Positions 1 through 20,263 of a stretch of DNA of 23,679 nucleotides are shown piece by piece; position 1 is the stretch's first letter, and each line of letters opens with the position of its first letter. A program made the translations under genes and the position numbers. Source of the DNA: a virus; IMG/VR virus record IMGVR_UViG_3300012350_000009, positions 1-23,679 of that record. The stretch is one strand, 5' to 3'. The notes beneath the pieces are model-generated. The model had not been told where the DNA came from, searched no databases, and saw nothing but the letters and a program-made list of their open reading frames with translations.

Positions 1-29
1 CCGTCAAGCGTGCGATGCTCGGGGAATGA
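1..29 (+). CDS. 3' end of an unidentified upstream gene
   Basis: An open frame enters at the left edge and ends with TGA at 27-29; only the last eight residues (VKRAMLGE) are visible. Its stop overlaps the ATG of the next gene as ATGA, the usual sign of a translationally coupled operon. Nothing can be said about function. It suggests that the plus-strand operon containing the nuclease gene begins outside the window. The call rests only on the overlap and open frame. Confidence 0.4.
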
Positions 30-310
30 GGCTCCGCGGGCGTACCGACGGCAACCAAGAGGCGATCGTCGACCTGCTGCGTGCGCTTGGGTGCGTCGCG
101 TGGGTCACGTCGAGCATGGGCCATGGCGCGCCCGATCTGGTCATCCGCACGCGGCGCGGGACCGTGCTACTGCTCGAGGTGAAGGACGGCTCCGCTCCCC
201 TCGCGCAACGCAAGCTGACGCCCGACGAGCTGATGTTCGCCGCGCGCTGGGGGGCGTCGTACGTCGTGGTGAGCTCGGCCGCGGACGCCCGGCGCGTCGC
301 CGACTGCTAG
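26..310 (+). CDS. VRR-NUC-type small phage nuclease
   Basis: This 94-residue protein matches the stand-alone VRR-NUC nucleases common in phages, which are PD-(D/E)xK-fold enzymes acting on DNA, probably in replication or recombination. Seen directly: an N-terminal NQEAIVDLLRALG helix (Q11), then GAPDL with Asp37, a strand reading LLLEVKDG that gives the E-x-K pair (Glu51, Lys53), QRKLTPDE, and a C-terminal WGASYVVVSS strand. The length is typical of the phage single-domain form. The start ATG overlaps the stop of the preceding gene; a Shine-Dalgarno at useful spacing is not obvious, so reinitiation is likely. It is convergent with the endolysin gene and their stop codons overlap. Family assignment is firm; the biological role is inferred. 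Confidence 0.85.
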   Translation: MRLRGRTDGNQEAIVDLLRALGCVAWVTSSMGHGAPDLVIRTRRGTVLLLEVKDGSAPLAQRKLTPDELMFAARWGASYVVVSSAADARRVADC

Positions 311-2360: not shown

Positions 2361-2452
2361 CGAAGCTTCTCCATCCGCTCAAGCCACGGCCCGACGTACA
2401 TGCCGAGGATGAAGCAGCCCGCCCCGATGCAGTAGCCCGCGAATGCGCTCAC
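2357..2452 (-). CDS. 31-aa single-helix membrane peptide
   Basis: This frame is locked between neighbours: GTG at 2452-2450 overlaps the TGA of the 95-residue gene (GTGA) and TGA at 2359-2357 overlaps the TTG of the spanin-like gene (TTGA). An AGGAG lies about ten bases before the GTG. The product is one hydrophobic helix (FAGYCIGAGCFILGMYVGPWL, 4-23 or so, with two Cys) followed by a charged tail LERMEKLR. A short membrane peptide at this place could be a holin, antiholin or pinholin partner; that is inference only. Codon choice is GC-rich like its neighbours. Confidence 0.6.
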   Translation of the reverse strand: MSAFAGYCIGAGCFILGMYVGPWLERMEKLR

Positions 2453-2736
2453 CGGCCGTCGTCTCCTGGCTTACGGTCAGAGTCCCAACAGCTCACGCCC
2501 CCGCCGGCTGTGTGCTGAATGACCTTGCCGAGTCGCATGCGCGCATCTTCGAAGTGGCGGACGGCGAGCATGGCTTGCGCCGCCGCTTCGCCGCTGACCT
2601 TCTTTTCGGTGACCAGCGCACGAACGTAGTGTTCAATGTCGAGGGCCTGGGCGCGCCAGCGGTTGCAGGCGTCCTCCAAGGTGGGGGCCATCGGAGGAAT
2701 GGTCTCGTTATTTGGCGTTGCCTGACTGTCGTTCAT
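2449..2736 (-). CDS. Small helical phage protein of unknown function
   Basis: A 95-residue protein with a polar N-terminus (MNDSQATPNNETIPP), a mostly helical middle (DACNRWRAQALDIEHYVRAL, 23-42, then a Glu/Ala/Lys-rich helix and AVRHFEDARMRLGKVIQ, 58-74) and a Gly-rich tail containing GGGVSCWDSD. There is no signal peptide or membrane helix. The start is well supported: AAGGAGA seven bases upstream of ATG. I do not recognise the family with confidence. It sits between two sets of tiny membrane-peptide genes, a place where phages often keep lysis regulators or host-interaction proteins. Confidence 0.7.
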   Translation of the reverse strand: MNDSQATPNNETIPPMAPTLEDACNRWRAQALDIEHYVRALVTEKKVSGEAAAQAMLAVRHFEDARMRLGKVIQHTAGGGVSCWDSDRKPGDDGR

Positions 2737-4656: not shown

Positions 4657-6298
4657 TGTCGTCTCCCGGTGAAAGAAAGCTTCCCGTCGCGCGCCCGACC
4701 TTCGGGCCGATGACCCGCGCTGCGCCGCCCTCGATCACGGCACGCCCGGCCCGCGAGACCAGATCTCCCGACCGCGCGCTGCGCTCGAGCCGGGACAGGC
4801 CGTAGTCAGCCGCGCGCGCCACTTGCGGGAGACCCTTCGTCACAACCCGGTTGCCCACCTCCATGGCGGCCGCCTCGCCAACGATGGCCAGTAGCCCTGG
4901 GATGTCCCCCGCGGCGAGCGCATGCATGGCGTGTGGCGCCAGCAGCGTCGCTTCCCCCGCGCGCACGATGCCACCGGCGATGGCGTTGCCGATCCCCGTG
5001 CCGCCCTTGGCCGCCTTGGTCGCCCGGTCAGCGAGGGCATCGCGCACGGAGAGCAGCGTGGAAACCGTCTTGTTCGCGGCCTTGAGCTGCGCCACGTCGA
5101 CGCCCGGGGTATGTGCGGCCGCGCCCTCGATCGCCTGGTTGTAAGCGCCGTAGATGGCCTGCTTCGCCGCAATCCCTGGCGTGGCGGCAGCCTCCTCTGC
5201 GCTGGAAAACGTGTTCCCCAACCCCACCTCGTTGCGCGCCTTGCGGAGCACCGTCGAGGTCAGCTTCTGGTCGTCCTTGAACGCCCGGCCGATGAACTTC
5301 TCGTACCGCTCGACGTGCTCGGCCTGCTGAATCTCACCGCTCGCCCGAAGCTTCTCGGTGAGCTGAAGAAGCTGGTACTTCAGGTCGAATCCGGTGGGGG
5401 TCGCGCCGTGCTTGTCGATTGCGGCGTAGATGGGATCGAGCCGCTTCGTGGTGTAGTCGTTGATCACGCCGGTCACCTTGTCGGCAACCTTCCCAGGCGC
5501 GGCCGCTGCCTTGGTCGCGACGGCGCCCGTGAGCCCCGTGCGCTCGAGCTCTGGCATCAGTTCGTCACGCGCCGCTGCCTTGGTCACCTTGTCCGCGAAC
5601 TTGGCCTTGGCGACGCCGCCCGCCTCGCCACGCGCGATGTTCGAGACGATGCGGTCCTCTACCCGCTCGGGCGCGCCACGCACCAGCTTGCCCACGACGC
5701 CCCCCAGCGCGCCGCCTACGGCACCGCCGACCGCGGCCCCCTTGGCAGCGCCCGCCAGCGCGTCGCCTGCGCCCCCGCCCGCCGTAAGCGCGTCCCCGGC
5801 GCCGCCGACAGCCCCGAACCCGGCGCCCGCCGCCGCGCCTGCGCCGACACGCCCGAGCGTACTGGTTCCCTTGGGCAGCGGGATAGGCGCCGCAACTTGG
5901 AGACCCGTGCCGACCACCGTACCAGCGGCCGAGGCAACAGGGTTGGCGGCTGAGCCTGCCTCGTCGCTCGCATTGATGCCGCGCAGCGCCTCCTGGTACG
6001 GCTGTCCGCTCACGAGGTGGGTGATGCCCGCGGCGGCCGGGTTGACGAGGTTGGAGCTGACCGCATTTGACGCCTTGCGAAAGAACGTCTCAATGGCCCC
6101 GGGCGCCTCCTCAGTGGAAGGCGGCGCGGCGTGCTTGCCCTTGGCCAGGTCGGTCAGCGACAGCGTGCTCGGCTGGTCCGGGCTGCCCGCGGGCGGTGCG
6201 GTCTGGCCGGATTGCTCGCGGATCTTCGCGATGATCTCGTCATCCGAGTACCCGGCGGCGCGGGCGTGGGTCGCGAATTCGTGCGGGTCGAAGGCCAT
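4646..6298 (-). CDS. Large Ala/Gly-rich protein, putative DNA-ejection (internal virion) protein
   Basis: A 550-residue protein with no signal peptide. The N-terminus has a short helical unit with GYSDDEIIAKI (16-26), a motif type seen at the start of phage internal proteins. A Pro/Ser linker follows. Residues about 150-205 are a low-complexity Gly/Ala segment with glycine-zipper spacing (GAGAAAGAGFGAVGGAG, GGAVGGALGGVVGKL) that could insert in a membrane. The remainder is helical (for example LKYQLLQLTEKLRASGEIQQAEHVERYEKFIG region). Its place after the tail genes and before lysis matches podoviral proteins that leave the capsid and form the DNA channel in the host envelope. This is inferred from position and composition; no lytic transglycosylase motif is visible. 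It starts at a TAATG overlap with the previous gene. Confidence 0.6.
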   Translation of the reverse strand: MAFDPHEFATHARAAGYSDDEIIAKIREQSGQTAPPAGSPDQPSTLSLTDLAKGKHAAPPSTEEAPGAIETFFRKASNAVSSNLVNPAAAGITHLVSGQPYQEALRGINASDEAGSAANPVASAAGTVVGTGLQVAAPIPLPKGTSTLGRVGAGAAAGAGFGAVGGAGDALTAGGGAGDALAGAAKGAAVGGAVGGALGGVVGKLVRGAPERVEDRIVSNIARGEAGGVAKAKFADKVTKAAARDELMPELERTGLTGAVATKAAAAPGKVADKVTGVINDYTTKRLDPIYAAIDKHGATPTGFDLKYQLLQLTEKLRASGEIQQAEHVERYEKFIGRAFKDDQKLTSTVLRKARNEVGLGNTFSSAEEAAATPGIAAKQAIYGAYNQAIEGAAAHTPGVDVAQLKAANKTVSTLLSVRDALADRATKAAKGGTGIGNAIAGGIVRAGEATLLAPHAMHALAAGDIPGLLAIVGEAAAMEVGNRVVTKGLPQVARAADYGLSRLERSARSGDLVSRAGRAVIEGGAARVIGPKVGRATGSFLSPGDDNGR

Positions 6299-17278: not shown

Positions 17279-18565
17279 TTAGTTCGTCGCGTGAACGACG
17301 ACCACGTTGGTGACGGGGCTGTTGCACCCGACGGTCCCGTAGAAGCCACAGCGGCTCTCCACGGAGTCCTCGGCCGTCATGCGGAGGATCTCCCCGACGC
17401 CATCGGCGTTGAGGAAGCGGGGCACCTCGGCGTTGCCGGCGCCGTAGTACTTCCAGGTGCTCATGTCGAGCAGGTACGACCGCTGCACGGGGCAGTAGCG
17501 GTCCGGCATGATCATGATCTCGCCCTCGGTGGCGAGGATGCGCGCGCCCTGGAAGCCGACGTTGTACGGTCCCTTGACCGTGGTGGGACGGAACTTGCTC
17601 ATGCCCGTCTGGATGAGCTGCTTGTAGTTCGTCGGGTTGGTGAAATAGATCATCTTCTCGGGGTTCCCGCCGAAGCGGGCCGAGGAGGTGATCGCCTCGA
17701 TGCAGAGGTCTTCTTTGTTCGCGCCGGCGACGGGCGAGCCCGCGGTGGTCGTGTTGAGGATGGTCCCGAGCAGGAGCGCGTCGTTGGTGCGGTTGGCGCC
17801 CGTCGCGTCGGTGACGCCCGCGGGGGTGATGGGCAGCCAAGCGTCGACGCCCGGCATGCAGCTCACCGCCACCTGCGAGGCGGCGTGGTTGCCTTCGACG
17901 AAAATGAAATCCCCGAAGGTCGCGCCGGCCAGGCCAGCCGTCAGGTTGCCCGACAAGGTCATGAGGCCGAGCTGCAGGTCGGAGATGCCGGTCACCGTGA
18001 CCACCGAGGCGCCGTCTGTGAGGGCCGCGAACTCGGTGTGCGCGCACTGCAAGCGCATGCCGCGCGAAAAGTGCACGATGTCCTCGGGGTTGGCGAGCTG
18101 GAGCGTGGTGCTGGCGAGCACCTGCCCCTGGGCCGCCGAAGCGACGCGCCCCACGTACCCGCTGCCCGACCGGTAGATGTCGGTCGAGAACTGGTTCATG
18201 GTGCCGTCGAGGATGCCGTCCAGCTGCACGCAGAACTTGTCGAAGAGGCCGCCCGTGCTCGAGGCGGCTGCCATCAGCAGGCCGTCGATCTGGGCGATGC
18301 CGTACTTCTTCACCCACGCCGGGTTGAACTGCTCCGTCTTGGTGAACTGAATTGCCGCCTGCGCCTGCGCGTTGGCGAAGCTGTTCGACACGGCGGGCGA
18401 GTTGCCCGAGCGGATCGGGATGACCGGGCCGGTGATGCCCTGCCCGACCACCTTGGTGATCATGCCGGCCAGGGCCCCCTTGGACCAACCGACCTTGCCT
18501 CGAAATGGGCGGTCGTAATTGACCGCAAGAGCCTTGGAAACGTTCGCGAAAGATGAACCGGCCAT
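17279..18565 (-). CDS. Major capsid protein
   Basis: A 428-residue protein placed, as usual, after the portal and scaffold genes. It starts AGSSFANVSKALAVNYDRPF, contains an E-loop-like stretch (PVIPIRSGNSPAVSNSFANA, about 48-67), a long spine-helix region (KKYGIAQIDGLLMAAAS, DKFCVQLDGILDGTMNQF) and beta-rich P/A-domain segments, including the characteristic EKMIYFTNPTNYKQLIQTG and GEIMIMPDRYCPVQRSYLLD. An HK97 fold is expected but is inferred. It has its own promoter (18680-18708) and a leader of about 108 nt whose hairpin covers the ribosome site GAGGT at 18572-18576. Separate promoter and structured leader suggest that capsid output is set independently of the terminase-portal-scaffold genes. 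Confidence 0.75.
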   Translation of the reverse strand: MAGSSFANVSKALAVNYDRPFRGKVGWSKGALAGMITKVVGQGITGPVIPIRSGNSPAVSNSFANAQAQAAIQFTKTEQFNPAWVKKYGIAQIDGLLMAAASSTGGLFDKFCVQLDGILDGTMNQFSTDIYRSGSGYVGRVASAAQGQVLASTTLQLANPEDIVHFSRGMRLQCAHTEFAALTDGASVVTVTGISDLQLGLMTLSGNLTAGLAGATFGDFIFVEGNHAASQVAVSCMPGVDAWLPITPAGVTDATGANRTNDALLLGTILNTTTAGSPVAGANKEDLCIEAITSSARFGGNPEKMIYFTNPTNYKQLIQTGMSKFRPTTVKGPYNVGFQGARILATEGEIMIMPDRYCPVQRSYLLDMSTWKYYGAGNAEVPRFLNADGVGEILRMTAEDSVESRCGFYGTVGCNSPVTNVVVVHATN

Positions 18566-18572
18566 GGTGAGA

Positions 18573-18614
18573 CCTCACGACGAGAGGTGGGTGTCTCCCT
18601 CGATCGTCGTGAGG
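18573..18614 (-). promoter_or_regulatory. Hairpin covering the capsid-gene ribosome binding site
   Basis: Perfect 11-bp arms, 18573-18583 and 18604-18614 (CCTCACGACGA / TCGTCGTGAGG), enclose a 20-base loop that can add a GAGG/CCTC inner helix (18584-18587 with 18598-18601). In the mRNA the 3' arm ends in GAGG, four of the five bases of the GAGGT Shine-Dalgarno (18576-18572) that lies six bases from the capsid ATG. Folding would therefore hide the ribosome site. It could be a translational switch, a site for capsid autoregulation, or an RNase III-type processing and stability element. No U-run follows, so a terminator is unlikely. Confidence 0.6.
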
Positions 18615-18659
18615 CTTCGCGGTTCCGGGCTCGGTCAGATTCGTAGTGCGCCGTCGGGA

Positions 18660-18679
18660 GAACGGGATTGTGCCCGTTC
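18660..18679. promoter_or_regulatory. Inverted repeat at the capsid promoter start site, operator candidate
   Basis: GAACGGG-N6-CCCGTTC, 7-bp perfect arms. It begins directly after the -10 box of the minus-strand promoter and spans the expected transcription start (about 18673). That is the classic position for a repressor operator. It would also put a small hairpin at or near the 5' end of the transcript. Protein partner unknown. Confidence 0.5.
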
Positions 18680-18708
18680 AGAATACGCGGTCACGGCCCG
18701 ATAGTCAA
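18680..18708 (-). promoter_or_regulatory. Sigma70-type promoter for the capsid gene
   Basis: On the minus strand: -35 TTGACT (18708-18703), a 17-base spacer, -10 TATTCT (18685-18680). This matches consensus at 5 of 6 and 4 of 6 with ideal spacing. It points to the major capsid gene, giving a leader of about 108 nt. It makes sense because the plus-strand insert would otherwise interfere with read-through from the scaffold gene. Confidence 0.55.
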
Positions 18709-18740
18709 CGCATGCGTCGGGTACGCGAGCGTCCGTTGAC
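18704..18740. repeat. Inverted repeat formed by two back-to-back -35 boxes
   Basis: GTCAACG at 18704-18710 and CGTTGAC at 18734-18740 are perfect inverted copies. Each overlaps the -35 box of one divergent promoter, with 27 bp between the two boxes. The symmetry could let one dimeric regulator act on both promoters, or simply reflect two similar promoters. Confidence 0.5.
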
Positions 18741-18765
18741 CGACGCGTCGGCACGGGAGCATACT
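18736..18765 (+). promoter_or_regulatory. Sigma70-type promoter for the lipoprotein gene, leaderless
   Basis: TTGACC (18736-18741), an 18-base spacer, CATACT (18760-18765). Matches are 5 of 6 and 4 of 6. The expected start site, six to eight bases on, is 18771-18773, which is at or within two bases of the gene's ATG (18773). The mRNA would be essentially leaderless, agreeing with the lack of a good Shine-Dalgarno. Confidence 0.5.
18740..18751. promoter_or_regulatory. 12-bp palindrome in promoter spacer, operator candidate
   Basis: CCGACGCGTCGG is a perfect palindrome lying between the -35 and -10 boxes of the plus-strand promoter. A protein bound here would block or remodel RNA polymerase binding. 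Short GC-rich palindromes also arise by chance in GC-rich DNA, so the location is the main argument. Confidence 0.4.
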
Positions 18766-18772
18766 TCGGGGC

Positions 18773-19234
18773 ATGCGAACGGCGATGTTGGCGGTGCTTC
18801 TGGCCGGGTGCGGCGCAAGATGGAATGGGGATTTCGTTCCAGACCCGGCGAAGTTGGTTCCACCGCCTGCGCACGCCGCGGAGGCCATCCGGGCCATTGC
18901 AGGCTTCTACGGGATGGCAGAGACGCCGCCGGTTTACTGGTACGGAGGCGCTATCCTGACGTGCGACAACGGGCGCGGCATCGACATCGGCGAGGGCCAA
19001 TGCGAATGGGGCGTCTACGTCGATGGGGCAGCGATCGTCGTAGCGCCGCCGGGCGCTCTGATCGGCGATCCACTCGGCAGCGCGCCTCCTACCAGTGCGC
19101 TGGCCCACGAAATGGGCCATGCCGCCTCTGACCAACGCGGAGAGGGCGTAGACTACGACCACGCCGGGCATTTCTTCGCGCCCGGCGGAGAGGTCGAGCA
19201 GGCCACGGCGATGCTTCAGGCGCGCGGTTGGTAG
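18773..19234 (+). CDS. Moron-type lipoprotein with HExxH metallopeptidase site
   Basis: A 153-residue protein on the strand opposite to the surrounding head genes. It begins with a very short lipoprotein signal, MRTAMLAVLLAGC, with the lipobox LAGC and acylated Cys13. The mature domain has LAHEMGHAA, an HExxH zinc site at 112-116, and a following DYDHAGHFF (127-135) whose His130 or His133 may be the third ligand. Cys64 and Cys77 may pair. Similar HExxH-DxDHxG lipoproteins are, as I recall, frequent in myxobacteria and relatives; zinc peptidase activity is inferred from the motif. The upstream frame is closed by TGA at 18737, so ATG 18773 is the first possible start. It has its own promoter and its stop directly abuts the scaffold gene's stop. 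This arrangement is typical of a moron: a cargo gene expressed apart from the late operon, perhaps in lysogens. Confidence 0.7.
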   Translation: MRTAMLAVLLAGCGARWNGDFVPDPAKLVPPPAHAAEAIRAIAGFYGMAETPPVYWYGGAILTCDNGRGIDIGEGQCEWGVYVDGAAIVVAPPGALIGDPLGSAPPTSALAHEMGHAASDQRGEGVDYDHAGHFFAPGGEVEQATAMLQARGW

Positions 19235-20263
19235 TCAGACCCCGTATTCACGCTTGATGGCGAGCCGGCGCGAGTACTCGTCCATGCCGGCGTAGGGGTC
19301 GACGTTGCCGGCAGGGCGGGGCGGTCCGCCGCGCTTCCCCACGGCGGGCACCGTGGCCTTGGCGGGGGCAGCCTTCTCGGACTTGGCACCCTTCGCCGCG
19401 AGCAAGGGGCCGAACTCCTCGTTGAGAGCGCGCTCGAGCAGCTCGGCGGCCGGCGCGATGTAGTCGCGGCGGTTCTTCTCGGTGGCGGATGGCTTCCCGT
19501 CATCGATCCAGAGCTGCTCGGCCAGCTCGGCGATCACGTCGTGCGTGGAGCGGTAGACCGCCGTCCCGTCGTTCTGGGGCACGGGCACCCGCTTCGACGC
19601 CTTCACCAGCGGCACGTCCACCTCGGCCAGGTGCTCGGCCACCACCTTGGCCACGGCTTCGTCCTCGGCGCGCGCGGCGACCTTCTCGAGCGCCTCCACC
19701 TTGGCCTTGAGGGCGGTGCGCTCCGGGTCGGGGTCGGCTGCGGCCATGCCGGTGCCCTCGAGCACCAGCTTCTCCATGGCCTGCTCTCGCGTGAGGCCGC
19801 GGGCCCGCATGGCGTCGGCGATCGTCCCCTCGGTCAGCGCCTTGTTTTGCGCCTGGAGCTCGGCCACCTTGGCCTCGAGGGCGCGGGCCTTCTTCTCGGC
19901 GCCGATGCTCGCCAGGAGGTCCTTGCGGGTCGGCTTGGCCGGCTCCTCCTCGGTCTTCGCTTCGACCTTGGGGGTTTTCTCCTCTTGACCGGCCTTCTCG
20001 ACCTTGTCCGGTTTGGCGGCGAACTCCTCGACAGTCCCGTCGCCGCGGAGGGCCATCATGATCTGCTCGGCCTTGTTCTGCTCGCCCAGGCCGCCGTCCA
20101 TCTCGACCACCTCGGTGCCGCTAACCACGGGCGCCTCCGTGTCGCTCCACGTCTCGGTCCTGGCGGCAAGGACTTCCTTCGTGGCGTTGGCGCCCCCTGA
20201 CACCTCGTTGACGGGCGTTGCGGTGACGTTCGATGGGGCCGGCGCGGGTGCTGCTTTCGCCAT
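19235..20263 (-). CDS. Scaffolding-like head assembly protein
   Basis: A 342-residue charged protein between portal and capsid, the normal place for a scaffold. The N-terminal third is disordered-looking (Pro/Ala/Thr/Glu-rich, AAPAPAPSNVTATP). Two coiled-coil stretches follow (about 120-145, KARALEAKVAELQAQNKAL; about 185-215, ALKAKVEALEKVAARAEDEAV). The C-terminus is basic (AAKGAKSEKAAPAK, then EYSRRLAIKREYGV), as expected for a scaffold tail that contacts the capsid protein. No protease motif is seen. ATG at 20263 has AAAGGA upstream. Its stop is adjacent to that of the plus-strand lipoprotein gene with no base between them. Confidence 0.7.
   Translation of the reverse strand: MAKAAPAPAPSNVTATPVNEVSGGANATKEVLAARTETWSDTEAPVVSGTEVVEMDGGLGEQNKAEQIMMALRGDGTVEEFAAKPDKVEKAGQEEKTPKVEAKTEEEPAKPTRKDLLASIGAEKKARALEAKVAELQAQNKALTEGTIADAMRARGLTREQAMEKLVLEGTGMAAADPDPERTALKAKVEALEKVAARAEDEAVAKVVAEHLAEVDVPLVKASKRVPVPQNDGTAVYRSTHDVIAELAEQLWIDDGKPSATEKNRRDYIAPAAELLERALNEEFGPLLAAKGAKSEKAAPAKATVPAVGKRGGPPRPAGNVDPYAGMDEYSRRLAIKREYGV

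Follow-up and report, generated by a model that had tools for sequence, protein, structure and literature searches.

The interval 18660-18773 of the window (the whole stretch of DNA analysed here, a virus record of 23,679 bases) is best read as part of a small tailed phage, in which it forms the 5′ control region of the gene for the major capsid protein and lies beside a moron-like insertion of a lipoprotein gene. We consider it probable that the capsid gene is served by its own promoter and by a leader RNA that sequesters its ribosome-binding site, with the lipoprotein gene as a moron-like insertion. The promoter-like site and the leader fold are conserved, in sequence and in pairing, across the clade of related phages, and in the window this arrangement is found at the capsid gene only.

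According to this model, a sigma70-type promoter would start the capsid message about 107 nt before the ATG, and the leader would fold so that the Shine-Dalgarno sequence sits in the 3′ strand of a stem, P1, with a spare copy of the anti-Shine-Dalgarno box upstream. P1 would keep capsid translation low by default, and translation would be released when the stem opens, be it through exchange between the CGAAAC copies, binding of a phage or host protein, or cleavage. The amount of capsid in relation to scaffold and portal would thereby be set without dependence on upstream read-through, and the lipoprotein gene would be an independently transcribed, recent insertion outside the capsid control. 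A sequestering stem on the Shine-Dalgarno sequence of the most abundant virion protein is counter-intuitive unless the stem is opened. In tailed phages, the synthesis of capsid subunits, which number in the hundreds, must keep pace with that of scaffold and portal; to our knowledge, the control of the capsid:scaffold:portal ratio is not known for most phages. A conserved, covarying capsid leader RNA that has a promoter of its own and is portable, as a second copy suggests, would offer a directly testable control point in a clade of uncultured phages and would add a family absent from Rfam.

The capsid gene, its neighbours and its relatives

The main genes of the window lie on the minus strand and include those for the terminase, a P22-like portal (weak match), a scaffold-position protein, the capsid and an SU10-type adaptor. 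The record is probably a fragment, since relatives of 36-38 kb are longer. The genes surrounding the control region are:

17279-18565, minus strand: gene for the major capsid protein, 428 aa (NCBIfam match to capsid_maj_Podo, NF033394, at E 2.5e-10, under the curated cut-off)
18773-19234, plus strand: lipoprotein-like ORF, 153 aa, between scaffold and capsid, with a lipobox (LLAGC) and a zinc-protease-like motif (HEMGH)
19235-20263, minus strand: scaffold-position gene, upstream of the capsid gene, with 27-37% identity to the gene intervening between portal and capsid in relatives

Against Pfam, the capsid gene gave a weak match to SU10_MCP. Single-protein scans of IMG/VR with the capsid, terminase, portal and lipoprotein sequences returned no match, and searches of genome, phage and plasmid collections, each with one or more of the capsid, portal, terminase, adaptor and lipoprotein sequences, yielded no relatives. 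Relatives were reached via a fragment of a 1019-aa tail-region protein, which led to L003 and L004, and then via an alignment of three capsids, which led to 25 loci. Several of the 25 related virus contigs recovered in this way are 36-38 kb long, and the capsids of L003 and L008-L013 are 50-53% identical to that of the window.

The gene order terminase-portal-scaffold-capsid is preserved in the relatives wherever the contig is long enough, and the junction between scaffold and capsid is variable: in the window it is occupied by the lipoprotein gene, in some relatives there is little or nothing at this site, and in the closest clade there is another gene. The latter is a co-directional gene of 122-148 aa (L003 1416-1784; L009 5405-5851; L012 4026-4406), DUF5681-like in L003 and L012. 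Elsewhere in the window, a 95-aa ORF (2449-2736, minus strand) matched the hairpin domain of Acb2/Tad1 below threshold (E 0.0012) and possibly encodes an anti-CBASS protein, and a weakly VRR-NUC nuclease-like ORF (26-310, plus strand) is a further plus-strand gene, at the left end of the contig.

A conserved leader over the capsid ribosome-binding site

The control feature that relatives conserve lies at 18563-18652, just outside the interval considered in the preliminary description, and consists of the following parts:

18563-18652, minus strand: conserved leader RNA element of the capsid gene, which ends on the ATG; match to covariance model R1
18638-18644, minus strand: first CGAA(A) box, ACGAATC; nearly all relatives have CGAAAC in the corresponding position
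18615-18620, minus strand: second CGAA(A) box, GCGAAG, which begins the 5′ side of P1
18604-18614, minus strand: 5′ arm of P1, CCTCACGACGA, the anti-Shine-Dalgarno side; part of a perfect 11-bp inverted repeat and present in the minimum-energy fold
18584-18601, minus strand: P2, apical hairpin with a GAGG/CCTC stem, in the minimum-energy fold
18573-18583, minus strand: 3′ arm of P1, TCGTCGTGAGG, holding the Shine-Dalgarno GAGG (18576-18573), 7 nt before the ATG

P1 is thus a long stem which buries the capsid Shine-Dalgarno sequence, is capped by P2 and is preceded by the two CGAAA(C) boxes. The perfect 11-bp inverted repeat over the capsid ribosome-binding site (18573-18583/18604-18614; P 0.0036) is the rarest of the region; it is absent from the preliminary description and is rarer than either of the palindromes reported there, illustrating that an RNA element can be overlooked when raw sequence is searched for DNA operators adjacent to it. 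Fold prediction gives the window's capsid Shine-Dalgarno a paired probability of 0.96-1.00, and the local RNA fold over it is strong (z −3.65), with moderate folding scores for whole leaders (z −1 to −4.4). When aligned, the leaders display two CGAAAC boxes, a variable hairpin region and then GAGGUUUCG directly before the ATG. In 15 of 16 leaders, folded independently by minimum energy, the Shine-Dalgarno lies within P1, and the capsid Shine-Dalgarno is paired more often than the Shine-Dalgarno sequences of other genes in the same phages (P 5e-4), although in these GC-rich phages the latter are partly paired too.

Evidence for the stem from comparison of relatives comes from R1, a covariance model built from eight of them with the window left out. 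On either strand of the 23.7-kb window its sole match is 18563-18652 on the minus strand (24.5 bits, E 4.9e-4; the E-values are rough). R1 also matches the held-out L014, L015, L016, L018 and L025 at their capsid starts, and the only other matches in the held-out set up to E 1 are the same sites on the opposite strand. Because RNAalifold on a MAFFT alignment gave only part of P1, covariation was assessed on the covariance-model alignment, which is fitted to R1 and so biased toward the model. In that alignment P1 is paired in 92% of cells, compared with 27-47% when the partner strand is slid, and 13 of its cells are changed on both sides versus 4.2 in shuffles, none of 500 of which scored as high. 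This pattern argues that P1 is maintained via compensatory changes. The stem is almost invariant within the closest clade, so that the covariation rests on a few deeper lineages.

Two pairs of the consensus P1 are mismatched in the window leader, and its first box is degenerate. This leader is also recovered by a sequence-only model, at 20.9 bits versus 24.5 for R1, indicating that primary sequence contributes part of the signal; the same model entirely misses the leaders of L014, L016 and L018. Structure therefore helps detection of the leader, yet sequence carries much of the signal. Rfam release 15 yielded no match in window positions 18400-19000, even with E up to 1, and no match at the gathering threshold in six relatives; we regard the leader RNA as uncatalogued, a new variant of the phage leaders that sequester ribosome sites. 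When the hairpin arms of the window were searched for as exact sequences, the one hit fell within a terminase gene of an unrelated contig, which we judged a coincidence.

The capsid tree places the window, with full support, as the sister of seven phages that bear the element. Together with L022, the element-bearing phages form a supported group, within which L022 alone is devoid of the leader element, although it keeps a promoter-like site; the more distant L005 and L028 gave no match to the element. With midpoint rooting, and with L022 on a long branch, one gain and one loss would suffice to explain this distribution. Scanning of ten whole records revealed a second promoter-plus-leader element:

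26195-26286 of G002 (the record of L009), plus strand, and 1396-1487 of L032: second promoter-plus-leader element, 43.7 bits

In the L009 phage, this second element has TTGTCC-16-TACATT upstream and precedes a 164-aa ORF with no assigned function. A homologue of that ORF in L033 (7443-7934) is not accompanied by the element, and the promoter and leader hence seem to act as a unit that can be gained or lost. As a separate observation, the capsid ORFs of L015 (start 5842), L016 (2768), L018 (5902) and L021 (5902) have a hydrophobic, signal-like N-terminal extension (e.g., MSHVLGFILLLLIAGAALDSLAG), which begins at the ATG of the leader element and is missing in the other relatives and in the window.

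As to how the leader might act, one tentative proposal, to which we give a minority chance, is that it represents a new class of leader RNA, a two-state switch of capsid translation in which two upstream CGAAAC copies compete for the GUUUCG after the Shine-Dalgarno: near pairing would shut translation, far pairing or binding of a virion protein would open it, and, with the promoter, the element would form a portable cassette for other genes. Replacement of the near copy by the far one carries a predicted cost of 1.3 to 9.3 kcal/mol, and a two-state exchange between the copies is possible.

It is unlikely that the conserved leader is instead a DNA operator, at which a regulator of the phage or the host would bind the CGAAAC boxes, direct and inverted, downstream of the capsid promoter. 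Nearly every leader does contain CGAAAC twice in direct and once in inverted orientation near the promoter, but the spacing varies from 14 to 22 nt between the direct copies and from 40 to 52 nt for the inverted pair, unlike an operator of fixed geometry. Moreover, P1 is lengthened by compensatory pairs to differing extents, always over the Shine-Dalgarno, and encloses an apical hairpin which folds at the P2 position in nearly all other leaders while its sequence changes. The variable box spacings and the retention of pairing despite sequence change make the operator less likely.

Similarly improbable is a leader fold that serves as a constitutive stabiliser of the message, or as an RNase III processing signal, raising capsid yield without regulation through the Shine-Dalgarno. 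The length of the stem, the very high expression of the gene whose leader contains it and the second copy preceding another gene would suit such a role. However, a stabiliser would not require the stem to lie on the Shine-Dalgarno, which it does in every element-bearing lineage, ending a few nucleotides from the ATG or entering it; the CGAAAC copy outside the stem is conserved as well. The model of a promoter-driven, sequestering leader remains the one we favour.

Promoters, palindromes and the lipoprotein gene

Upstream of the leader, the features described in the preliminary description are as follows:

18680-18708, minus strand: capsid promoter, TTGACT (−35, 18708-18703), 17-nt spacer, TATTCT (−10, 18685-18680); predicted transcript start about 18673
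18736-18765, plus strand: promoter-like site for the lipoprotein gene, TTGACC (−35, 18736-18741), 18-nt spacer, CATACT (−10, 18760-18765); a consensus match only, 9/12
18660-18679: repeat GAACGGG-N6-CCCGTTC, which covers the predicted start of the capsid transcript and is probably incidental (chance 0.22 per region)
18740-18751: CCGACGCGTCGG palindrome; probably incidental (chance 0.11 per region)

Both promoters are present as they had been reported, and they are the only sigma70-like sites in 17500-20000, where 0.2 are expected; the whole window has 4. A divergent pair of this kind is rare by chance, arising in about 5e-5 of simulated regions of the same length and composition, a rough frequency obtained post hoc with one consensus from 1 occurrence among 20,000 draws. 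The earlier suggestion that a promoter is dedicated to the capsid gene within the head operon is supported by its recurrence at the same position in relatives. Under one fixed rule, a promoter-like site was found in 11 of 16 homologous leaders, compared with 20 of 1572 background segments (1.3%). These 16 comprise 15 capsid leaders, including that of the window (10 of the 15 with a promoter), and one leader of another gene. The site usually lies 123-143 nt upstream of the capsid ATG, with predicted transcript starts 88-107 nt before the ATG, upstream of the 5′ arm of P1. In relatives, its distance from the ATG is about 123-137 nt and its spacer 16 nt, for example TTGACG-16-TACAGT in L003, L008 and L010, TTGACG-16-TACATT in L009, TTGACC-16-TACCTT in L012 and TTGACA-16-TACGCT in L022. 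The binomial value for the enrichment, 6e-18, is an overstatement, because the leaders share kinship and the rule was loosened after some of them had been seen; even so, the enrichment remains large.

The preliminary description had further combined the two promoters, the symmetry of their −35 boxes and two palindromes into a switch linking capsid and lipoprotein expression. The symmetry, GTCAACG/CGTTGAC, is real, but it is mostly a consequence of two opposed −35 boxes, the match beyond TTGAC/GTCAA having a P of about 0.02. Both palindromes likewise exist in the sequence; CCGACGCGTCGG does lie in the spacer of the plus promoter, except that it begins inside the −35 box and so does not simply fill the spacer. 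Inverted repeats of the size of GAACGGG-N6-CCCGTTC occur in 22% of simulated regions and 12-bp palindromes in 11%, and the window as a whole contains 26 such inverted repeats and 9 such palindromes (nested ones counted). The test proposed at the outset was conservation of both palindromes in relatives with the same gene order; neither palindrome, nor its position, was found in the leaders of 14 relatives, most of which keep the order terminase-portal-scaffold-capsid. Being expected by chance and absent from relatives, the palindromes lend no support to a reading as operators. The linked switch lacks comparative support as well, since the relatives have the capsid control region without the lipoprotein gene. 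A repressor acting on the two palindromes and the symmetric −35 boxes to set capsid against lipoprotein is consequently very unlikely: the rare divergent pair of consensus-matching promoters and the location of the palindromes at promoter positions speak for it, the chance-level palindromes, not found in relatives' leaders, and the failure to find the lipoprotein gene in relatives speak against it, and no regulator domain was detected among the proteins scanned with Pfam in the window, itself probably a fragment.

The plus promoter is plausibly the lipoprotein gene's own and, if real, would start transcription at about 18772 to give a leaderless message. The gene had no tblastn match in the related contigs, and its product had no significant match in Pfam, PHROGs, NCBIfam or PDB and no relative in the collections searched; its AlphaFold model (pLDDT 42) was uninterpretable. 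The lipobox and HEMGH motif suggest a small surface zinc protease. The GC3 of the gene, 0.75 versus 0.87-0.93 for the other phage genes, is consistent with recent insertion, and the gene is probably limited to this phage. Phage morons are single genes of atypical composition, with their own promoter, inserted between conserved genes. The lipoprotein gene resembles them in its atypical composition, in its absence from the site in close relatives, and in lying on the opposite strand, with its own promoter-like site, between two conserved genes. It differs from morons in that no terminator was found in 18600-19400 and in that its stop codon abuts that of the scaffold-position gene.

Comparison with known phage control elements

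The soc gene of phage T4 encodes the small outer capsid protein and is thus itself a capsid gene. Together with T4 genes e, 49 and I-TevI, it has a leader hairpin that sequesters the ribosome site (PMC3014915). What the window leader shares with these hairpins is a leader helix, in the window a predicted one, that encloses the Shine-Dalgarno and/or AUG of a phage gene; it is unlike them in its tandem CGAAAC boxes and in its target, the major capsid gene. At T4 gene e, the position of the late promoters leaves the 5′ strand of the structure out of late messages (PMC3014915). We rejected this promoter-inside-hairpin mode for the present leaders on geometry, because the predicted start precedes the whole stem and the message from the promoter would carry it.

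Another conserved element at translation starts is the SAS of cluster K mycobacteriophages, a 13-bp sequence of which the non-structural half of the genome carries 11-19 copies, some copies having upstream inverted repeats with a variable spacer (extended SAS) (PMC3203893). The capsid leader element, in contrast, is present in 1-2 copies, on the capsid gene and one other gene. Searching the window with the 13-bp SAS, GGGATAGGAGCCC, gave one match with two mismatches, at 5880-5892 and hence away from the capsid start, against a chance expectation of 0.8.

In phage T7, the phi10 promoter before capsid gene 10 provides this gene with its own supply of message within the late region, and T7 promoters are served by the phage's own RNA polymerase. 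The window shares with T7 a dedicated, here predicted, capsid promoter; unlike phi10, this promoter resembles a host sigma70 site and is followed by a conserved leader that would sequester the Shine-Dalgarno.
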